Shown here: positions 21,204 to 34,341 of the stretch, piece after piece | Layout of the letters: each line of letters begins with the position of its first letter | How positions within the stretch are numbered: position 1 is the stretch's first letter | Assembly (NCBI GenBank): GCA_017513095.1 | Contig: JAFWDJ010000002.1 | Location: 1 to 46,590, forward strand | Direction of reading: 5' to 3' | Source: Clostridia bacterium | GTDB lineage: Bacteria > Bacillota > Clostridia > Oscillospirales > RGIG577 | DNA length: 46,590 nucleotides | Position numbers and translations under genes: made by a program | The notes under the pieces: generated by a model | Seen by the model: the letters and a program-made list of their open reading frames with translations, nothing else | Databases searched by the model: none | What the model was told of the DNA's origin: nothing

Positions 21204-24200
21204 CTACTTCGCGTTCTTGTCGTAGTTCATCACGATCTGCGCGACCTCCGCGCGGGTCGCCTGTCCCGCGGGATCGAGCACGCCGTTTCCGCGGCCGCTT
21301 ACCACGTCGCACGAGAGCGCCCACTCGAACGCATCAACGGCCCACGGACTTATCTTATCGCCGTCCGAGAACGACGTAAGATTTCCGCCCTCGACTGCGG
21401 GCTTTCCTTTAAGCCTCCAGAACAGCGTTACCATCTGCTCGCGCGAAACGGGATCGTTCGTGCCGAACGTGCCGTCGCCGTAGCCCTCGATTATACCGTT
21501 TTCGGATGCCCACGCCACGGCGTCGGAGTACCACGTGCCGCTCTCGACGTCGTCGAATCCGGCCTTGCCGGACGATGCGGGGCTGCCCGCGATGCGATAG
21601 AGCACCGTCGCGAACATAGCGCGCGTCATCGTATCGTCGGGCGCGAACAAATCCTCGCTTACGCCCTTGAAGTAACCGTTGTCATAGCAGTAGTAAACGG
21701 CCTCGTTGTACCAGGCGCTGTCGGCCACGTCCTTAAACGGCCTTGAGGAGGTATCGTCGGGCGGGGTCGTATCGTCGGGATTATTCTGCGGCTTCGTGCT
21801 TCCGCCTCCGCCGCCTCCGCCGCCGCCTCCGCCGCCTCCGGAGGACTTTTTCGCGATCGTCATATTGAGGCTTACGTTCTCGGAGCCCGCGTTAAGGCTC
21901 TTTGAAGCAGCCGCGTACGTGTCGTTGCCCGCGAAGGTGAGCGTGTAACTGCCCTCGGGCACGCCGATCATGCTAAGCTTTCCGTTCATAACCTCTGCGG
22001 TGCGGCTTATGGTGCCGCCCAGCACGTCCGTGCCGGACAGCGTGAACTCCAGGCCCTCCATCGAGCCTCCGTCGGTGGACGAAACGTTTACGGTAACCGT
22101 TCTTATGAGCGACGTGGGCGTCGAATACGTCCCCGACGCTGCCGCGCTGTCGTTATAGCCCGTCTTTACGGCTATCGCCTTTATCGTCATGTCGCCCGAT
22201 ACCGAAACGCCGCCGTCATAGACTCTGCTGTCCTTCGTCGGCTCGCTTCCGTCGGTGGTGTAGTAGATCTTTGCGCCCTCGGCCGCCGATATCTCAACGA
22301 CGCTTCCGCGCTCTACCTGTCCCGACGCCGGAGTAAGCACCGGAGCCGCAAGCGCCGTGCGCTCTATTGCCGCGCCCGTATCGCTGTAATCTCTGCCCAT
22401 CGGCGTACCCGCGTAGCTTTCAACGTCGCCCGCAATGGCGAGCGTCACAACGCCGTCGAACGCGCTGCCGGACGCGGGCTTAATGCATACGGTCTTCGTG
22501 TACGTTCTTACGGCCTCGCCCGCAATGTTTTCGGGCGTATGTCCCTGTGTCTCGGCCTCGACCGTAAAGCCCGTGATATCTCCGCCGTCGTCCGCCAGCG
22601 TATAATTTGCGGCGTACAGTACGGACGAAGCGTCATTCGCCGTATCCTCCATATACTTCGTAAACGTTACGTAAATGCCGTCGCTCGTGTAGAGAACGTC
22701 CTCCACGGCGGGCGCGCTCTCGTCAACTATCGGAAGATTTACGTCAAGCTGAACGGGGAGTACCGGAAGCAGGCGGTCAACGCTCTCGCCGCCTAAAGTA
22801 ACACCCGAAACGGCCACGGTCGCGGCCTTGTCGTTTGCGCTCGTCACGCTCTTACCCATATAATCGGCCTTTACGAACCAGAGTCCCTCGGGAACGCCCC
22901 AGCCGAAGCGTCCGTCCTCGCCGGTTATCTGCGTCGCCTCGCACGGCATGAGGTATTTCACGTCGTCCGCGGATTTAAGCTCCGTTATCGTCTTTCCGAA
23001 CTCAACGGCGCCCGTGCCCGTCTTTCTGCCCGTACCGGCGTCGGCCGCCGTCGCCTCTCTTACGATGTTGCCGTATGCGTCGGCCGCGTAGTAAATGGTC
23101 ACCTGTACGCCCGAAACGGGATTTTCTATAACGCCCTCGTAAACTATGCCGGACGGGTCGTTGTTCTGCGGCGTCGGCTTTCCTTCCGTGATGCGCGGAC
23201 CTTTGCTGTCGCTTGACTTATTCTTTTCGTCCTTCTTGCAGTTCGGGTCGTTCATCTGCGACGCGCGCGCGCGGCACATGCTGTCTATCATCTTATAAGT
23301 CTTTACGTATTCCGTCGCGACTTCTTTCATCGCGTTCGTGCAGCTCGTGTTTATAACGTTGCCGGTGATAAAGCTGCCGAAGGCAAGCTTTGCGCCCGCC
23401 TGCACCGAAATTTTCGCAAGTCCGCCCCAAATGCTTGCAATTACTATCCCGGCGTCGGTAAGCTCCGCGGCGCCGTTGCCGAAGTCGAAGCGGTTGCACG
23501 TCTGCTCAAATCTTTTAAGCTGCTCCTGAAACGTCGAAAGCTGCGTCTCGGTAAGCGCCTGATAGCACGGGTGACTCGGCAGTATCTCGTTTATCTCGCG
23601 CTTCATGTCATTAACGTAGTTTCTGTAACGCTCTCTGCGTTTACATGCGTGCGCCCACGCCGGCAGACCCAGAATCGAACCTATCCAGCCGCACGGACCC
23701 GCGCTGGCCGTACCGAAGGCGCCGCTGCCGATGCCCAGACACGTTTCGTTCGTGTTTTCCTGCTGATGATATTTCTCCTCTTTGTCAAAATCAAATTCGC
23801 CGTGGAACTCATCGGGCACGCGCTCGATCGGCATACCGTATCCTTCAAGAGGATTGTTCTGATACGTATGCTCCTGAGGCCAGCCGTATGCGGGGCCGCT
23901 CTGACCCTCCGAATACTCGGCGTACGCAAGCGAAGCCTCCGGCTCGCTCTCTCTTAGCTCTGCCTCGGGGTCGTTTAAGTTTATAAGATAGCCGTAGAAG
24001 TCCTTCGTAAGCTCCGCCGTTATAAATGCGTAATACATCGTTCCCGAAGGGTCGGTGCGGTCTATCATAAACGACGCGTGTATAGCGTAGGTGCAGTATA
24101 CGATCTCGCCGTTCTTCTGCCATGCGTCCGTTATGATGTAGCGGTAAACCGTATGTCCCGCGTCGTCGTTTATCCGGTAGGGCAGCACGTTCTCGGTGCC

Positions 24201-27200
24201 GTGCGTGGCCTCGGCGATCTTTTGTATATTGCTTTTAGCGTTCTCAAAGTCCTCTGCTGACGCGAGCACGCCGCCGAAGTTGAATACGAGCGACTCGTCT
24301 GTCTCGTTTGCCATTCTTTCGGCGTATATTTCGTTGAGCCATGCTATCGTGCTGTTCTCAACTCCGCCCACGTCGTGCTTCATCTTTACGTAATTGAGCT
24401 TAAGGCCGTTCTTAGCCGAATTTGCGGCCGCCGCCGTAAACACCTCGGCGTCAAGGCCGTCCGAATTGCCGCCGAAGGTCGGCACGCCGTTCTCATCGAA
24501 CGTAACGCTCCAGTCGTCCCCGGGGGTAAGCTCCGTTACGTCTCCCGTTTCGTCCACAAGGCCGGACAGATCATCCATCGCGGGATCGCAGATTACCGTC
24601 TCGACGGTGTTCGCGTTCCACTCCCCGGGCTCGCTCTTCGGTATGTACATAAGCTCGGCGTACGTTATCGAATCGTGAAGCGCGGTATCGGCTCTGCCGA
24701 CAAATACGCCGCCCTCGTCCTTCATCGGAAGGAAGCGTATCTCGCCGTCGTTCGTGAACAGCTTCGTTACGGCCTTTACGTTCTCGCCCCATTCGCTCAT
24801 CGTCTCAAGCGCCTCGGGGTTGTCGAATACGGCCTCGAACGTTACGTCGCGCATCGAGCCGCCGTAGAAGTTATACGGCTCGCCCACGTTTATCGTCCTC
24901 GTGCCGTACTCCGTCCACGTCATCGTATAGCCCATAAGCTGCGGGCCGCTTGAGTCGTGTATTATCCAAAGCTCGTCGCTTTCCTCGCCCGATTCGGTAA
25001 CGGCGGTGATTATATGTACCGTCGCTTCCGTATCGCTTACGTCCGAAAGCGTTATCTCGGCCGTCCAGTCGCCCCATCTGTCGGCTGTTGCCGCACCGGC
25101 GCCCGCGCCGTTATCGAATACGGTGACCTCCTCGCCGGGCAGCGCGCGGCCGCTTATGAGCACGTTCTCGCGGTTTACATAAGTCGAAAGCGTATCGAGG
25201 AACGCGCCCGGCCGCTTCACCACGGCGCGGCCTATGAGCTGACCGGAGGATCTTGCGCTCCCGCCGTTATACGTTACGTCGGCCGAGAGCGTTACGTCCA
25301 TGTCAAGGTCAACGGCTCCGGGATTGCAGTATATCGTATACTCGCAGGGCAGCTCAACATCAAATCCGTTCATTCTGTAAGAATCGGAGTGATAATTATA
25401 ATACAGCTTGTCCGTATAGTCTTCACCGTTTATGATTATTGCCTGTATCGGCGCGCTGTTTAAGCAGCTCCAGCCCTTACGGCTGTCGGACACGCCCGTG
25501 CGGATGCGAATGCTCTTAAGCCTTCCGTCGTTTATGCCGCTGTCAAGGCCCATTTCGCCGCTGAAGGCGATAAGGTCGCCCGTGTTCGAAAAGCTCTCGG
25601 CGCTCGCGTACATCGTTGAGCCGGGCTTCGTAACGTAAACGGCGTTCTCGCTGTCTCGCTCGGTCGCGGTGTAGCCTTCAAGCTTTGCAACCTTGCCCGC
25701 CTCAAGCGTCACGTTCCACGTTTTAAGAGCATCGGTCACTTCCGATAAGGGCGTTTCGGCGTTGAGAAGGCCGTCGTACGCGGCGGGCATGAGCGCCGCG
25801 ATATAGCTGCCCGCCCCTTTAGGCGCAACGGACGTATACGTATCCGTCATGCTCGTTATATAGAAGCTCGGGCTCTTTGATATGAACGTCCCGTCCGCGT
25901 CGTACCACGCGAATATTACGGGAACGGTGAACGCCGCTTTAAGCTCCGTAAAAACGCCTGCCCTCGGCACGAGCGTGATCTCCGTCCGGCCGCGCGTGGT
26001 CGTAATATCTACCGTCTTCTCCGCCGCGGGCTCAAAGGTATCGGCGCTTATCGAAAGCGTTACGGTATCGGCCGACGCCGATCTGCACAGATAATACGTC
26101 TCGTTTCTCGTAAGCGTATTTCCGTACATATACATCCTGTCGCGGCAGATATCCGTCTCCGCCTCAGTGCCGCCGCTTATCGTTGTGTCCACCATGGGGT
26201 CTCGGGCACTGAGATATTCGCGAAGCGCCTCTTCGTTGCCCGGCACGGCCTGTATGTTCATCGTCGCGGCTATTGTCACTTCACCTACAACGATGTCCCA
26301 CGTACCGCCGTCGACCGGATTTCTGTTTGTGCTGCCCGAGTCAACGTACAGCCGGTAATCGCCCGAATATGCGCTTATATCCGCGGGCTCGCCGGGATAA
26401 AGCGCGAGCGTATAGCTGCCGTCGGCCGCCGTCACGGCCGTTGCGGTGCGGTACATATTCTTATAATACTGCGAAGCCACGACCTTTACGCCCGCCGCGG
26501 GTCTATTTGATCTTCTCGCGGTGACCTTGCCGCTCACCGTCGCCGACGGAGCCTCGATCTTCGGCAGCGTCACGCCCAGGATACCCGACGCCGCATTGAA
26601 CGAATACGTATAGGCGTCCTTTTGGTTCCAGTCGTATATGGGATAATTTTCGGAAGCGGTGTTCCCTTTTAAGTACACCTCGATGCCGTTTTCCGAAAAA
26701 TCGGGCGTGACCGCGCCCGGCGCGTATATCGTCGCGCCGCCGGCCGATTTCACCGCGCCGCTGTACGCGAAGTAATCGTCGGGGTTTTCAAGTCCCGTCA
26801 CGGCAATCCCGCTGAATAACGCAAGCTCGGGACCCGTGCGCGTCATAATGATATCGCCCGTGTCGTCGCTCACCTCTCCCGTGTATTCGGCCACGACGGC
26901 GGACTCGCCGTTTACGTACATGCAGAGCTCAAGCTTTTTATACGTGCTGCCGTTTCCGAAAAGCCACGGCTCAAGCGTTACGGTATCCTCGTTTGCCAAA
27001 ATGCTTGTATACCCTTCAAGGTCGGTGTAATATGCCCTTATCCATCTGTCGCCGGACAGAGAAGAGAGCTCCCCGGGCAGCGTCACGGTAACGGGAGGCT
27101 TCTCGCTCCAGCGCGCGATAAAGTTCACGCTGCCCGTGACCGTGTATTCCTCACCGGGGCCGTAAGTCTCGTCGCCGTAGGTCCAGCACTCGAAGTCATA

Positions 27201-28091
27201 TCCTCCGCGCTGCGGAGCCGCGGGCAGCGTTATTTTCGTGCCCTTTTTCACGGTAACGGAGTTGTACGCACCCGTGTAGTCGTACGCGCCGTTTAATATG
27301 TATCTCACCGTATATTCGGGCGTGGGCTTAACGGTGAGCGAAAACGTCTTCGAAACGCTCTGCCCCGCGCCGTCCGACGCGGTGACCGTAACGGTGAACG
27401 TACCGACCTCTGAGGTCTTACCGCTTATCTCGCCCGTCGCGGTATTAAGCGAAAGTCCCTCGGGCAGTCCCGCAGCCTGCCACGACGCGACCGCCGTGCC
27501 CGCAAGCGTATCCGTGTACGCGCAGTCCGCCTCCGCCGAGAGAAGCGCCGTCGTCGTAATCGACAGCGTCTGTGTGATCTCGTCGGTTATGTGCACCACG
27601 CCGTCGGTGTGGTAATACTCGTCGGTATATTCCTCGGATACGTACGAGCCGTTCGAGGTGACCACCTTCAAACGATAATCGCCCTTTTTGACGTTCGGTA
27701 TCGTCAGGTTCTGTATCCAGATGCTCACGCCGAATCCGTCGGCGCCGCCGTCGATTACCTCACATTCGTTCGAGCCTCCGTATGAGGGGGTCAAAAGATC
27801 GTACACCTCGGTCCTCGTCTCGCTGTCGACGAGCAGCACCTTCTTTATCGTGCAGCTCTGACCGACCGTAACGAAGCCGGAGACGGACATCTTCGCCTCT
27901 CCCGCCGAATTGATCATGAGACTGCCGTCGCTCGTCCCGAAGCCGTAGCTTTCGGGTCGGTTGTTGTCGTAAAACGACGCCTCAAGCCAGCCCTGGCTTC
28001 CGCCTGCCAGCGCCGCCGCGGGCAGTATCGTAAGACACATGGCAATCGCTATGATGAGCGACAGCGTCCGTTTAAACCTCTTACTTTCCAT
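21204..28091 (-). CDS. Giant secreted multidomain surface protein with C-terminal SLH repeats
   Basis: 2295 residues. The signal peptide (1-29; LSLIIAIAMCLTILPAAALA) is followed by a long chain of beta-sandwich modules: a putative Ig domain of the He_PIG type (about 176-255, GLPEGLSLNTATGEISGK), an InlB/Flg_new repeat (260-329, GYDFECWTYGDETY), a carboxypeptidase-regulatory-like domain (SATVSGKVTARRSNRPAAG), Ig-like segments (VLISGRALPGEEVTVFDNG), and a chitobiase/HexC-like domain (IYYTTDGSEPTKDSRVYDGG). A tract of thirteen glycines precedes a Pro/Asp linker. From residue 2115 come three SLH repeats (FKDVADSAWYNEAV, FDDVESGTWYSDAV, FSDGDKISPWAV) that attach to pyruvylated wall polymer. A mid-protein hydrophobic stretch (AGIVIASIWGGLAK region) and a Cys/His-containing segment are unusual. 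No enzyme domain is recognised. An adhesin or wall-scaffold role is likely. GAAGGAGGAAGG precedes the ATG. Confidence 0.9.
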   Translation of the reverse strand: MESKRFKRTLSLIIAIAMCLTILPAAALAGGSQGWLEASFYDNNRPESYGFGTSDGSLMINSAGEAKMSVSGFVTVGQSCTIKKVLLVDSETRTEVYDLLTPSYGGSNECEVIDGGADGFGVSIWIQNLTIPNVKKGDYRLKVVTSNGSYVSEEYTDEYYHTDGVVHITDEITQTLSITTTALLSAEADCAYTDTLAGTAVASWQAAGLPEGLSLNTATGEISGKTSEVGTFTVTVTASDGAGQSVSKTFSLTVKPTPEYTVRYILNGAYDYTGAYNSVTVKKGTKITLPAAPQRGGYDFECWTYGDETYGPGEEYTVTGSVNFIARWSEKPPVTVTLPGELSSLSGDRWIRAYYTDLEGYTSILANEDTVTLEPWLFGNGSTYKKLELCMYVNGESAVVAEYTGEVSDDTGDIIMTRTGPELALFSGIAVTGLENPDDYFAYSGAVKSAGGATIYAPGAVTPDFSENGIEVYLKGNTASENYPIYDWNQKDAYTYSFNAASGILGVTLPKIEAPSATVSGKVTARRSNRPAAGVKVVASQYYKNMYRTATAVTAADGSYTLALYPGEPADISAYSGDYRLYVDSGSTNRNPVDGGTWDIVVGEVTIAATMNIQAVPGNEEALREYLSARDPMVDTTISGGTEAETDICRDRMYMYGNTLTRNETYYLCRSASADTVTLSISADTFEPAAEKTVDITTTRGRTEITLVPRAGVFTELKAAFTVPVIFAWYDADGTFISKSPSFYITSMTDTYTSVAPKGAGSYIAALMPAAYDGLLNAETPLSEVTDALKTWNVTLEAGKVAKLEGYTATERDSENAVYVTKPGSTMYASAESFSNTGDLIAFSGEMGLDSGINDGRLKSIRIRTGVSDSRKGWSCLNSAPIQAIIINGEDYTDKLYYNYHSDSYRMNGFDVELPCEYTIYCNPGAVDLDMDVTLSADVTYNGGSARSSGQLIGRAVVKRPGAFLDTLSTYVNRENVLISGRALPGEEVTVFDNGAGAGAATADRWGDWTAEITLSDVSDTEATVHIITAVTESGEESDELWIIHDSSGPQLMGYTMTWTEYGTRTINVGEPYNFYGGSMRDVTFEAVFDNPEALETMSEWGENVKAVTKLFTNDGEIRFLPMKDEGGVFVGRADTALHDSITYAELMYIPKSEPGEWNANTVETVICDPAMDDLSGLVDETGDVTELTPGDDWSVTFDENGVPTFGGNSDGLDAEVFTAAAANSAKNGLKLNYVKMKHDVGGVENSTIAWLNEIYAERMANETDESLVFNFGGVLASAEDFENAKSNIQKIAEATHGTENVLPYRINDDAGHTVYRYIITDAWQKNGEIVYCTYAIHASFMIDRTDPSGTMYYAFITAELTKDFYGYLINLNDPEAELRESEPEASLAYAEYSEGQSGPAYGWPQEHTYQNNPLEGYGMPIERVPDEFHGEFDFDKEEKYHQQENTNETCLGIGSGAFGTASAGPCGWIGSILGLPAWAHACKRRERYRNYVNDMKREINEILPSHPCYQALTETQLSTFQEQLKRFEQTCNRFDFGNGAAELTDAGIVIASIWGGLAKISVQAGAKLAFGSFITGNVINTSCTNAMKEVATEYVKTYKMIDSMCRARASQMNDPNCKKDEKNKSSDSKGPRITEGKPTPQNNDPSGIVYEGVIENPVSGVQVTIYYAADAYGNIVREATAADAGTGRKTGTGAVEFGKTITELKSADDVKYLMPCEATQITGEDGRFGWGVPEGLWFVKADYMGKSVTSANDKAATVAVSGVTLGGESVDRLLPVLPVQLDVNLPIVDESAPAVEDVLYTSDGIYVTFTKYMEDTANDASSVLYAANYTLADDGGDITGFTVEAETQGHTPENIAGEAVRTYTKTVCIKPASGSAFDGVVTLAIAGDVESYAGTPMGRDYSDTGAAIERTALAAPVLTPASGQVERGSVVEISAAEGAKIYYTTDGSEPTKDSRVYDGGVSVSGDMTIKAIAVKTGYNDSAAASGTYSTPTSLIRTVTVNVSSTDGGSMEGLEFTLSGTDVLGGTISRTAEVMNGKLSMIGVPEGSYTLTFAGNDTYAAASKSLNAGSENVSLNMTIAKKSSGGGGGGGGGGGGGSTKPQNNPDDTTPPDDTSSRPFKDVADSAWYNEAVYYCYDNGYFKGVSEDLFAPDDTMTRAMFATVLYRIAGSPASSGKAGFDDVESGTWYSDAVAWASENGIIEGYGDGTFGTNDPVSREQMVTLFWRLKGKPAVEGGNLTSFSDGDKISPWAVDAFEWALSCDVVSGRGNGVLDPAGQATRAEVAQIVMNYDKNAK

Positions 28092-30982: not shown

Positions 30983-31067
30983 GGGGGGATTCCCGAGTGG
31001 CCAAAGGGGGCAGACTGTAAATCTGTTGTCACTGACTTCGGTGGTTCGAATCCACCTCCCCCCACCA
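30983..31067 (+). tRNA. tRNA-Tyr (anticodon GTA)
   Basis: 85 nt with encoded CCA and the long variable arm of a class II tRNA. The acceptor stem GGGGGGA pairs with TCCCCCC (31057-31063). The anticodon loop CTGTAAA presents GTA. The T-arm is GGTGG/CCACC with TTCGAAT. It lies 5 nt after tRNA-Thr, so the two are one transcript. Confidence 0.95.
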
Positions 31068-31068
31068 G

Positions 31069-31096
31069 AAAAGCCTCGCGTAAAGCGAGGCTTTTC
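31069..31096 (+). terminator. Intrinsic terminator of the tRNA operon
   Basis: The 11-bp stem AAAAGCCTCGC/GCGAGGCTTTT (31069-31079 with 31085-31095) has loop GTAAA and starts one base after the CCA of tRNA-Tyr. Confidence 0.85.
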
Positions 31097-31099
31097 AAC

Positions 31100-31252
31100 T
31101 AAATCCACCCTGTCGGGTGGGATAAATCGGCTGACGCCGATGAAATCCGCCCGGACGGCGCACGGGTGGATTTAATTTCATTGTGAGCGGAGCGAACGAT
31201 TTCATCCGAGGGCAGCGTCCGGGGATTTCACCGCGGCATCGCCGCGATTTCA
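31100..31252 (+). repeat. Left hairpin array of the four-helix-bundle cassette
   Basis: A series of short hairpins separated by a constant hexamer. Clear stems are AAATCCACCC/GGGTGGGAT (31101-31123), ATCGGC/GCCGAT (31126-31141) and CGCGGC/GCCGCG (31232-31246). ATTTCA recurs at 31175, 31199, 31225 and 31247, spaced 24, 26 and 22 nt. A TGAAATCCGCCC...GGGTGGATTT inverted pair spans 31141-31180. The array ends 22 nt before the gene start. Confidence 0.65.
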
Positions 31253-31274
31253 TTAAAAAACGAAAGGCTATATC

Positions 31275-31604
31275 ATGGCTGAAAATAAACTCGCCGATCT
31301 TTCAACCGAATTTGCGGTTCAAATTCTGAAACTCACCGACGGTATTAAAGGCCATTATTCACTTGCAAATCAACTTGAACGGAGTGGAACAAGTATCGGC
31401 GCAAATATCCGTGAAGCAAAATACGCCCACGGCAAAGCGGACTTTGCAGCAAAATTGCAAATCGCTTTAAAAGAATGCTATGAAACCGAATACTGGCTTG
31501 AGATCGCGCAAAAAGCCGATATAGTTTCGGAGAAATCTGTTAAAGTGCTTTTGCACGACTGCGGCGCGATCCGCCGTATGCTATCTCCTCAATCAATACT
31601 TTAA
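31275..31604 (+). CDS. Four-helix-bundle protein (S23/IVS family, Avd-like)
   Basis: 109 residues, all alpha-helical in pattern, with the family signature RSGTSIGANIREAKYAHGKA (residues 36-55) followed by DFAAKLQIALKECYETEYWL. Members occur as open reading frames in 23S rRNA intervening sequences and as free genes. The related bAvd is the accessory protein of diversity-generating retroelements, a basic oligomer that binds nucleic acid and the reverse transcriptase. No reverse transcriptase, template repeat or rRNA lies nearby. The coding sequence is visibly richer in A+T than its neighbours, which suggests transfer. A GAAAGG ribosome site precedes the ATG. It is flanked on both sides by hairpin arrays and a 24-bp imperfect direct repeat, so it is probably the cargo of a small mobile unit. 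Confidence 0.85.
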   Translation: MAENKLADLSTEFAVQILKLTDGIKGHYSLANQLERSGTSIGANIREAKYAHGKADFAAKLQIALKECYETEYWLEIAQKADIVSEKSVKVLLHDCGAIRRMLSPQSIL

Positions 31605-31810
31605 AGGAAAACAATAAATAGTGAAAACGCAAAACCTTTGGAACAGATTTCTTTTGACAAATTATCAAGCGAATAAAGGCTGCAATTTGATATTCCCTTT
31701 TGAAATATTAATAAAAATCGCCGATCTAAATTGCTTGCGCGGTTTTTCCGAACAATACCGAAAACTCGGCTTTTTGGGCAATCCGATCTAAACTGTTTGT
31801 CGTTGCCGGA

Positions 31811-31838
31811 AAAAAGCAGCCGTAAGGCTGCTTTTTTT
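31811..31838 (+). terminator. Intrinsic terminator downstream of the four-helix-bundle gene
   Basis: The 11-bp stem AAAAAGCAGCC/GGCTGCTTTTT (31811-31821 with 31826-31836) is followed by two more T. It lies about 200 nt past the stop. The intervening AT-rich stretch carries only a 56-codon GTG-started frame (31621-31791) without good support. Confidence 0.8.
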
Positions 31839-31841
31839 AAG

Positions 31842-31924
31842 CGAAATCCGCCCCTTTCGGGCGTGAAATTGCCCCTCAAGGGCAGTGAAATGCGCCTCGC
31901 GGCGCGCGGGTGGATTTTATTTCA
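31842..31924 (+). repeat. Right hairpin array of the four-helix-bundle cassette
   Basis: Mirror-image organisation to the left array. CGAAAT (31842) and TGAAAT (31864, 31886) recur at exactly 22-nt intervals, each followed by a small hairpin: CGCCC/GGGCG, TGCCC/GGGCA and GCGCC/GGCGC. The array ends in the 24-bp segment 31901-31924, which matches 31157-31180 with two mismatches. Confidence 0.65.
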
Positions 31925-31950
31925 CCGCAAATGTTATGAGCGATATCACT

Positions 31951-31972
31951 AAAAGCGCGTCCCGCGCTTTTT
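31951..31972 (+). terminator. Terminator-like hairpin in the thioesterase leader
   Basis: The 9-bp stem AAAAGCGCG/CGCGCTTTT with loop TCC is followed by T. It lies 27 nt upstream of the thioesterase ATG. It could end upstream transcription or act as an attenuator. Confidence 0.5.
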
Positions 31973-31998
31973 ACACTATCCCACCGGAGGTTTTACAC

Positions 31999-32859: not shown

Positions 32860-34341
32860 ATGGGCAACGAAAGCCGCTCTGATGTAAAAAACAAGCGCCG
32901 CCGCAGAAAAAGGCGCGTCTTTCCCGCCGTGCTCGGGGTGATATTCGTCGCCGTCGCGACCGTTGCGGGCGTTACGACCGCGTTCCACTTTTTAGCGGGC
33001 GGCCTCAAAGACGGCTCGAACCTTTTGCCCGCGGCCATATTCGACGACGCCGAAACGGGCGAAGGCGCGGAAAGACTCAACTTCCTGCTCATAGGCACCG
33101 ACGGAAGCAACATGCGTACCGATACGATACTCATGGTCTCGCTCGACTTCGTCGATAAAAAAATAAACCTCGTATCGATCCCGCGCGACACGCGCGTACT
33201 TGTGAACGGCCGCTATCACAAGATAAACGCCTGCGCCGTAATAGGCGGCGACGAGCTTTTGATAAACACCGTGCGCGACATAACGGGCGCGCCGATACAC
33301 TACTACGTCAGGGTAAGCTTTACGGGCTTCCGAAATATTATAGACATTTTAGGCGGCGTCGACTACTACGTCCCGATGGATATGCACTACTCCGACCCGT
33401 ATCAGAATCTTTATATAGATTTAAAGGAGGGCCAGCAGCACCTTGACGGCGACAAGGCCGAACAGCTCGTGCGCTTCAGGCGCTATCCCGAGGCCGACAT
33501 CCAGCGCACCCGCGTTCAGAAGGATTTCCTAAAGGAGCTTTTAAAGCAGAAGCTCACGCCCGAGAACTTCCTTCGCGCGCCCGCGCTCTACTCCGATATA
33601 GCAGAGAATGTCACCACCAACTTCACCGTGGGCGACCTCATGAAGCATCTCGATATAATAAAGCTGTTCCAGAACGCCGGCGACGATACGATAACGGCCT
33701 ACGAGATGCCCGGCAGCGCGCGCATGATAAACGGCGCGTCGTATTGGATACACGACGTCGACGCGACTCTAAAGCTTTTCAAGGACAACTTCGGCGGAAG
33801 CGGCACGTCCCAGGCAAAGACGACGTACTCCGCCGCCGAGCAGAACGCGCTTTCCTCCTCCGAACGCGTGACCGCCGAGGAAGCGGCCGATTCGATATCC
33901 GAGTCGGACGCAACGGACGAGGGACTGCCCGCCGACGACCTCGATATGCTGCTCGAAGGCGAAGACGGCCCGGGCGAAGACAGCGAGGACGGCGACGCCT
34001 CCGACTCCGCCGATACGGACGCGGACGACGAAAACGGCTCCTCCGATACCCACTCCGGCGACACCCATTCGGGTGATACGCATTCGGGCGATACGCATTC
34101 CGGCGACACCCACTCCGGCGACACGCATTCCGGCGACACGCATTCGGGTGATACGCATTCGGGCGATTCCGGCGACGGCTCGTCGGGCGATTCGTCCTCC
34201 GGCTCCGGCGGCTCTGACGGCGGAGACGATTCCCACGGCGGCTCGGACGACGGCACGACGCCTCCCCCCGCCGACGGCGGCGGCTCCGACTCCTCCGGCG
34301 AGGAGCGCGACATAAGCACTCCCCCCGAATGGCTGAGATAA
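32860..34341 (+). CDS. LytR-CpsA-Psr (LCP) wall-polymer ligase with HSGDT-repeat tail
   Basis: 493 residues. Basic N-terminus (KNKRRRRKRR), one membrane anchor (about 20-43), then the extracellular LCP domain (about 72-215): LNFLLIGTDG, MRTDTILMVSLDF, SIPRDTRVLVNGRYHKINACAV, and RFRRYPEADIQRTRVQKDFLK with the Arg/Asp residues that bind the polyprenyl pyrophosphate. LCP enzymes attach teichoic acids or capsule to peptidoglycan; the TagO-like transferase at 9606 may supply the same pathway. After residue 330 comes an acidic Ser/Asp/Glu-rich region and eight perfect five-residue units HSGD(T/S) (398-437, encoded by eight 15-bp units at 34051-34170), then a Gly/Ser/Pro tail. AAAAGGAGAT precedes the ATG. 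A weak promoter-like pair lies at 32785-32814. Confidence 0.93.
   Translation: MGNESRSDVKNKRRRRKRRVFPAVLGVIFVAVATVAGVTTAFHFLAGGLKDGSNLLPAAIFDDAETGEGAERLNFLLIGTDGSNMRTDTILMVSLDFVDKKINLVSIPRDTRVLVNGRYHKINACAVIGGDELLINTVRDITGAPIHYYVRVSFTGFRNIIDILGGVDYYVPMDMHYSDPYQNLYIDLKEGQQHLDGDKAEQLVRFRRYPEADIQRTRVQKDFLKELLKQKLTPENFLRAPALYSDIAENVTTNFTVGDLMKHLDIIKLFQNAGDDTITAYEMPGSARMINGASYWIHDVDATLKLFKDNFGGSGTSQAKTTYSAAEQNALSSSERVTAEEAADSISESDATDEGLPADDLDMLLEGEDGPGEDSEDGDASDSADTDADDENGSSDTHSGDTHSGDTHSGDTHSGDTHSGDTHSGDTHSGDTHSGDSGDGSSGDSSSGSGGSDGGDDSHGGSDDGTTPPPADGGGSDSSGEERDISTPPEWLR

Follow-up and report, generated by a model that had tools for sequence, protein, structure and literature searches.

Two tandem hairpin-array units and an S23-family gene behind a tRNA-Tyr gene of a Clostridia bacterium: a probable decayed mobile cassette

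The locus behind the tRNA-Tyr gene

We examined a window of 46,590 nucleotides from a Clostridia bacterium (assembly GCA_017513095.1, contig JAFWDJ010000002.1), in which an S23-family gene and two arrays of short hairpins lie between a tRNA-Tyr gene and a thioesterase gene (Table 1). The original prediction described the S23 gene at 31275-31604 as enclosed by two oppositely organised arrays, with ATTTCA on the left and its complement on the right, and these coordinates and spacings were correct: ATTTCA occurs at 31175, 31199, 31225 and 31247 (spacing 24, 26 and 22 nt), CGAAAT at 31842, and TGAAAT at 31864 and 31886 (22-nt spacing). Hairpins and hexamers were also beyond chance. The stretch 31100-31924 holds nine copies of ATTTCA and TGAAAT (one of them, TGAAAT at 31701, outside both arrays), against at most 2 in the other 825-nt stretches of the window (n=1,765, step 25) and at most 7 per stretch in 2,000 first-order Markov simulations, none of which reached 9.

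The opposed arrangement itself did not hold. The unit 1 array consists of a left half with TGAAAT-like linkers (Gut-1-like, 31096-31181), the core GGATTTAATTTCA and a right half with ATTTCA linkers. TGAAAT is found in the left half of this left array as well, at 31141, preceded by ATAAATC, and the right array closes with ATTTCA at 31919; therefore both orientations are present in each array, the right one being truncated. The right array is a second copy of the left array's left half in the same orientation, with palindrome, first half and core repeated, so the two are tandem copies of a left end. Both matched the Rfam Gut-1 model (RF01706) on the + strand, at 31096-31181 (32.8 bits) and 31839-31916 (32.3 bits), below the gathering score of 50 bits for membership in that family; a weaker match of 25.4 bits lay on the - strand at 31194-31278.

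Table 1. Features of the locus, in window coordinates
Feature	Position	Strand	Basis
tRNA-Tyr (GTA), insertion target; CCA ends at 31067	30983..31067	+	ARAGORN, Rfam
Left-end palindrome/terminator-like hairpin of unit 1; GAAAA starts right after CCA	31068..31095	+	sequence
Unit 1 hairpin array	31096..31252	+	sequence, Rfam, covariation in relatives
S23-family four-helix-bundle gene (PF05635, TIGR02436); frameshift near the 3' end relative to relatives	31275..31604	+	profile matches, relatives
Remnant of unit 1 cargo and right end; no sense ORF of at least 80 aa	31605..31808	+	ORF list, BLAST
Palindrome/terminator-like hairpin of unit 2	31809..31838	+	sequence, BLAST
Unit 2 hairpin array: Gut-1-like left half, core and one ATTTCA; truncated, without S23	31839..31925	+	Rfam
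Insert end (boundary inferred)	31926..31949	+	comparison with G001 and G002; homology resumes at 31986
Probable host tRNA terminator (inferred from its place; sequence unlike G001 and G002)	31950..31972	+	

The S23 protein scored far above the curated cut-offs of PF05635 (89.8 bits vs 33.8) and TIGR02436 (94.6 vs 24), with 2rld as its PDB relative (E 6e-20), and no recognised catalytic domain was found in it in Pfam or NCBIfam. Its usual family C-terminus is missing because of the frameshift. The protein had been described as basic, but its pI is 6.8, and 123 array-linked S23 proteins had a median pI of 7.76 (range 5.35-9.38), which rules out basicity as an argument for nucleic-acid binding. 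Rfam and ARAGORN detected no rRNA family in the window and only two tRNA genes, so that the S23 gene does not lie inside a 23S rRNA gene, and the sole RVT_1 match of the genome was on another contig; the locus thus carries neither rRNA nor reverse transcriptase, as originally noted.

Two genomes of the same genus (G001 and G002) provided the empty site that the original prediction had proposed to look for. They carry tRNA-Thr, tRNA-Tyr, a terminator-like hairpin and the thioesterase gene in this order, with nothing of the array or S23; their homology to the window stops at 31072, where the last aligned bases are A-rich, and resumes at 31986. Because both lack everything between tRNA-Tyr and the thioesterase gene, positions 31068-31949 are, judged from this comparison, evidently an insertion directly behind the tRNA-Tyr CCA. 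The host terminator probably lies just beyond it, which would place the insert after the CCA end and before that terminator. Another genus offered a second comparison, at a tRNA-Trp gene: two genomes (G005 and G047) carried a unit, of a different type, and two others (G029 and G256) had none, and the homology between G005 and G029 stopped exactly at the tRNA-Trp 3' end. The boundary at a tRNA 3' end and the empty sites in relatives are those of a tRNA-targeted integrative element.

The window copy is a decayed relic, since the end of S23 is frameshifted, the cargo is absent and unit 2 is truncated; intact members are found elsewhere. A BLAST search of 31605-31842 against the fetched loci for a right end gave terminator matches only.

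The unit in relatives

A scan of 84,980 species genomes gave at least 547 confirmed relatives, of which the best 80 were kept. The same array was present upstream of S23 in most loci with enough sequence, so that the predicted recurrence of arrays beside S23-family genes was borne out. The symmetric enclosure was not: in the relatives compared, what comes after S23 is a variable gene and then a right end of another kind, and intact units are laid out as palindrome/terminator, hairpin array, S23, variable cargo gene and conserved right end. Both ends could be placed in 10 of 14 group A loci, where the unit measured 1,005-1,343 bp.

Among 64 TGAAAT-type loci, ARAGORN placed a tRNA 3' end upstream of S23 at a distance of 200-289 nt in 47, representing 13 kinds of tRNA. 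The corresponding count was 23 of 58 for S23 loci of other types (within 340 nt) and 0 of 26 for loci from a phylum-wide draw of S23 genes. The remaining loci, 17 of the TGAAAT type and 35 of other types, had no tRNA in range; in some of them a tRNA fragment or another unit intervened. The left-end palindrome did not vary among loci behind Leu, His, Met and Tyr tRNAs, and it differed by 1-2 changes behind Arg, Gly and Ser tRNAs; as the same palindrome follows different tRNAs, it is part of the unit. Three loci, behind tRNA-Leu (L024), tRNA-His (L031) and tRNA-Arg (L061), were 90-92.5% identical over the unit of about 1.1 kb, with cargo and right end at 95.5-97.8%, and their tRNAs and downstream flanks differed.

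The cargo gene overlapped the S23 stop by ATGA in 32 of the 72 loci with at least 600 nt downstream. Cargo was scanned in 46 of 68 downstream ORFs, a sample from which most ORFs starting far from S23 were left out, and matched 37 Pfam families; among the 25 of these 37 families listed, acetyltransferases were the commonest and no recombinase, integrase, transposase or reverse transcriptase occurred. PADLOC assigned the cargo to 5 defence families, with 1 member each of the 46. All-vs-all comparison of the downstream flanks separated two kinds of right end: in group A, about 50 bp are conserved after the cargo and do not copy a tRNA 3' end; group B has a longer right end, and the tRNA accompanying it is tRNA-Trp. 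Another array often follows the right end, and at one locus (L018) a tRNA-Ser-like 3' end lies between two arrays. Downstream of the cargo of L014, L017, L019, L021, L032 and L056 we also observed a right end of about 150-200 nt whose stems seem compensated between loci; it had no Rfam match above gathering.

Taken as a family, these units are well supported as a mobile cassette at tRNA tails, and the compact protein-plus-structured-nucleic-acid unit of the original prediction was thus sustained. With regard to vehicles, two contigs from viral collections (L247 and L250) carried S23 with a TGAAAT array, and therefore phages may be vehicles. The plasmid search matched 25 records, all below 60% identity. 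Among the further S23 genes, that of a Monoglobus pectinilyticus megaplasmid (L248) has hsdS and hsdR of a type I restriction-modification locus on either side, with neither an array nor a tRNA; that of Treponema saccharophilum pTS1 (L249) follows a long direct repeat of GTGAAAG/GGAAAG words and then CTCTCCG words, perhaps a distant array type.

Array structure, S23 pairing and Gut-1

We aligned 53 arrays and counted the cells changed on both sides of a pair: 134 for the local-hairpin structure and 144 for the long-range outer stem, against 39 and 41 in shuffles, none of which (0/500) reached the observed values, although kinship among the aligned sequences inflates these numbers. The signal of both structures was lost on sliding; the weakest measure, further pair types, was reached by 17/500 and 4/500 shuffles. 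The alignment leans to regular arrays, since it comprised 53 of 60, with L013, L018, L021, L024, L073, L077 and L098 left out because hairpins were absent or unusually long or the ends were irregular, and several others trimmed at their ends. With 22-23 base pairs showing changes on both sides (0/500 shuffles), the proposed selection at the level of structure was supported. The outer stem was 98.1% paired and the local alternative on the same 5' strand 97.1%; the two are mutually exclusive, so the array could switch between them.

Loops were of the GNA type in 78 of 198 right-half units and of the complementary TNC type in 79 of 136 left-half units, and right-half stems contained 56 tandem GA/GA and 0 TC/TC mismatches (counts made without the hairpin units that failed to fold over their full length, 7 on the left and 5 on the right). 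The loops are mirror images, and thus an oriented unit of linker plus hairpin is repeated rightward on the top strand and leftward on the bottom strand. GNA triloops are unusually stable in DNA. We read this mirror pattern as fitting DNA folding, and double-stranded DNA better than one RNA strand. G-T content, at 2.5% in terminators, 2.7% in left hairpins and 2.1% in right hairpins, did not discriminate between folding as DNA and folding as RNA.

Other S23 subfamilies had the same array plan with other words (such as TGAAGT, TGATGT, TTATAT/TGATAT, TATATC, TGAATTG, ATGAAG and a hairpin-poor AGTGAA). Array similarity tracked S23 identity across 123 S23 genes from 91 genomes (Spearman 0.70, 0/500 permutations); these were selected from 175 S23 ORFs by dropping those with less than 235 nt upstream, less than 95 aa or E above 1e-20, as well as the phylum-wide set (L128-L157). 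Cross-genome pairs with at least 75% S23 identity (n=1,895) had a mean array cosine of 0.73, and same-genome pairs below 60% identity (n=57) one of 0.03, with 0 of 57 above 0.3. Array type therefore goes with S23 type and not with the genome. The pairing could owe much to physical linkage, which alone gives part of it, and recognition would give pairing too.

Gut-1 was published as an orphan noncoding RNA candidate from human gut sequences only (PMC2864571). Its model fits the left half of S23-linked arrays. Of 10 loci submitted, 6 scored above gathering: in 5 the match lay immediately before S23, and in L051 it lay in a following array (as further matches did in L017 and L063). Searched irrespective of S23, with 15 candidates scored per genome, Gut-1 was present in 125 of 295 genomes of the order. 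Only 2 of the 30 top-scoring Gut-1 loci held S23, a count in which 9 of the 30 sequences stop no more than 250 nt from the array; so low a share would be expected were many arrays non-autonomous copies. The original prediction had named, as what would speak against it, arrays as common without the gene and lacking covariation; arrays without S23 were indeed the commoner ones in this sample, but covariation was strong. In the 28 of the 30 Gut-1 loci that could be judged, a tRNA 3' end lay 30-38 nt before the array in 13, a slight undercount because L228 also has tRNA-Ser in range, and a CCA-AAAA-like junction (a loose pattern) occurred in 20.

The gene-free Gut-1 copies inspected consist of an array and a short right end. 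We observed in L210, L211, L214, L216, L219 and L220 a shared right end with the T-arm-like word GTTCGAATTC about 50 nt before the next hairpin, a word that may mimic the 3' part of a tRNA. The window genome has 8 Gut-1-like matches and one S23; the matches include two loci (L240 on contig C27 and L243 on contig C5) where arrays of another word, with linkers of the CGATAT type and no gene, stand in tandem immediately after tRNA-Trp and tRNA-Ser. G001 has a Gut-1 match and no S23 match.

Across 59 genomes, Gut-1 and S23 occurred together in 27, singly in 4 and 4, and neither occurred in 24 (p 1e-8; p 3e-6 without 8 genomes counted as Gut-1-negative but outside the matches listed). RVT_1 and Y1_Tnp showed no association in the same 59 genomes (p 0.78 and 1.0, respectively). 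RVT_1 was absent from 21 of the 31 S23-positive genomes, which does not fit a diversity-generating retroelement, and Y1_Tnp from 17 of the 31, which does not fit a REP/RAYT or IS200/IS605-like element. Phage_integrase genes, at the family level, were present in 59 of 59.

A proposed mobility system and its alternatives

We consider that 31068-31949 is an insertion of two tandem hairpin-array units and most likely a decayed mobile tRNA-tail cassette. Its S23 protein would, on this prediction, bind the array of its own unit and assist in moving that unit, and we give this reading a probability of roughly 0.6. An S23 oligomer would recognise the oriented linker plus short hairpin, repeated on each strand around the long-range stem, and the array, folded in single-stranded or cruciform DNA, would be the attachment site. 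A recombinase, either S23 itself or one acting in trans, would join the array behind the CCA end, the element's own terminator would spare tRNA transcription, and arrays without S23 (Gut-1) would be non-autonomous copies. S23 is proposed to bind the array and drive mobility because it pairs with array type and Gut-1 tracks it by genome.

This cassette reading agrees in part with several known systems. Folds of the S23 kind are related to the four-helix fold of bAvd of diversity-generating retroelements, which is thought to bind nucleic acid; unlike those retroelements, the units have no reverse transcriptase among the 25 of 37 cargo families listed, and RVT_1 is unassociated. Integron gene cassettes are small one-cargo units with folded, covarying attC sites, and our units are likewise small and one-cargo, with a folded, covarying attachment-like site and tandem occurrence. 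They differ in having no integrase gene (again among the 25 of 37 cargo families listed), in the site being at the 5' end, in their scatter over many tRNA genes, and in S23 being present in each full unit, partly by design, as S23 was the means of finding the full-unit loci. MITEs and REP elements with a RAYT transposase comprise many gene-free palindromic copies and few gene-bearing ones, as do the arrays described here, but we observed no Y1 transposase association and no terminal inverted repeats at both ends.

The 23S rRNA intervening sequence, e.g. that of Coxiella, is a short, selfish-looking insert with an S23-family ORF (PMC4990558). The cassette, too, is a short insert that combines an S23-family ORF with inverted-repeat structure and sits at a gene for a structured RNA, but it targets the 3' end of tRNA genes and not the interior of 23S rRNA, and it has a one-sided hairpin array, its own terminator and a variable cargo gene. 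Compared with the published description of Gut-1 RNA (RF01706, PMC2864571), Gut-1 is here one half of the array of a mobile unit, with the window copies under the cut-off. A literature search that covered few subscription papers and no preprints gave, among the papers listed, nothing relevant beyond PMC4990558 and PMC2864571.

The tRNA 3' ends are classic integrase targets, and a passive cassette might be moved in trans by an unrelated tRNA-targeting tyrosine recombinase (of an integrative element, a prophage or host Xer), with S23 only stabilising or regulating it. In favour of this, Phage_integrase occurs in all 59 genomes, Pfam and NCBIfam show no known catalytic domain in S23, and S23-less arrays are widespread. 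Nevertheless, a family present everywhere gives no presence signal, while Gut-1 tracks S23 across genomes; moreover, units of one type are found behind many different tRNAs, and the right end in group A does not copy a tRNA 3' end, so that we regard passive movement as unlikely, yet a serious alternative. The array could also be a structured noncoding RNA or leader, transcribed internally or from the promoter of the tRNA. S23, whose fold is related to that of bAvd, would then be its RNA-binding partner, perhaps with a reverse transcriptase in trans, as in diversity-generating retroelements. The strong covariation suits this RNA function, as does the publication of Gut-1 as a noncoding RNA candidate (PMC2864571). 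However, a terminator-like palindrome separates tRNA and array, the mirror GNA/TNC loops fit double-stranded DNA better than one RNA strand, and RVT_1 is missing in 21 of 31 S23-positive genomes, which makes it improbable.

Finally, the arrays might be functionless tRNA-flanking palindromic repeats spread by chance amplification or recombination, with S23 one of several genes caught among them. The frequency of Gut-1 (125/295 genomes) and of sampled arrays without S23 (S23 in 2/30) would accord with this, but the array word changes with the S23 subfamily, Gut-1 and S23 tend to be present in the same genomes, unit ends are consistent and distant S23 genes are not behind tRNAs (0/26), and we give chance spread very little credence.

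Extending the preferred cassette reading, we tentatively propose, as a conjecture that may well prove wrong, that S23 proteins serve as mobility factors for a large class of tRNA-tail cassettes among gut Clostridia. Each subfamily would read its own linker word in the folded DNA array, insert units and gene-free Gut-1 copies behind CCA although the unit encodes no known transposase, integrase or reverse transcriptase, and spread translationally coupled cargo. If true, this would explain the orphan Gut-1 'RNA' and the role of S23 in rRNA intervening sequences, and would join three puzzles in one testable system, namely S23 function, Gut-1 identity and the spread of small accessory genes in uncultured gut Clostridia. 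The match between S23 subfamilies and linker words would be a directly testable recognition code, and the unit's own terminator suggests harmless settling behind tRNA genes.

Elsewhere in the window, we observed 15-nt tandem repeats at 34044-34167 in a LytR-CpsA-Psr gene, encoding GETHR-like pentapeptides, and an ORF of 2,295 aa on the - strand at 21204-28091.
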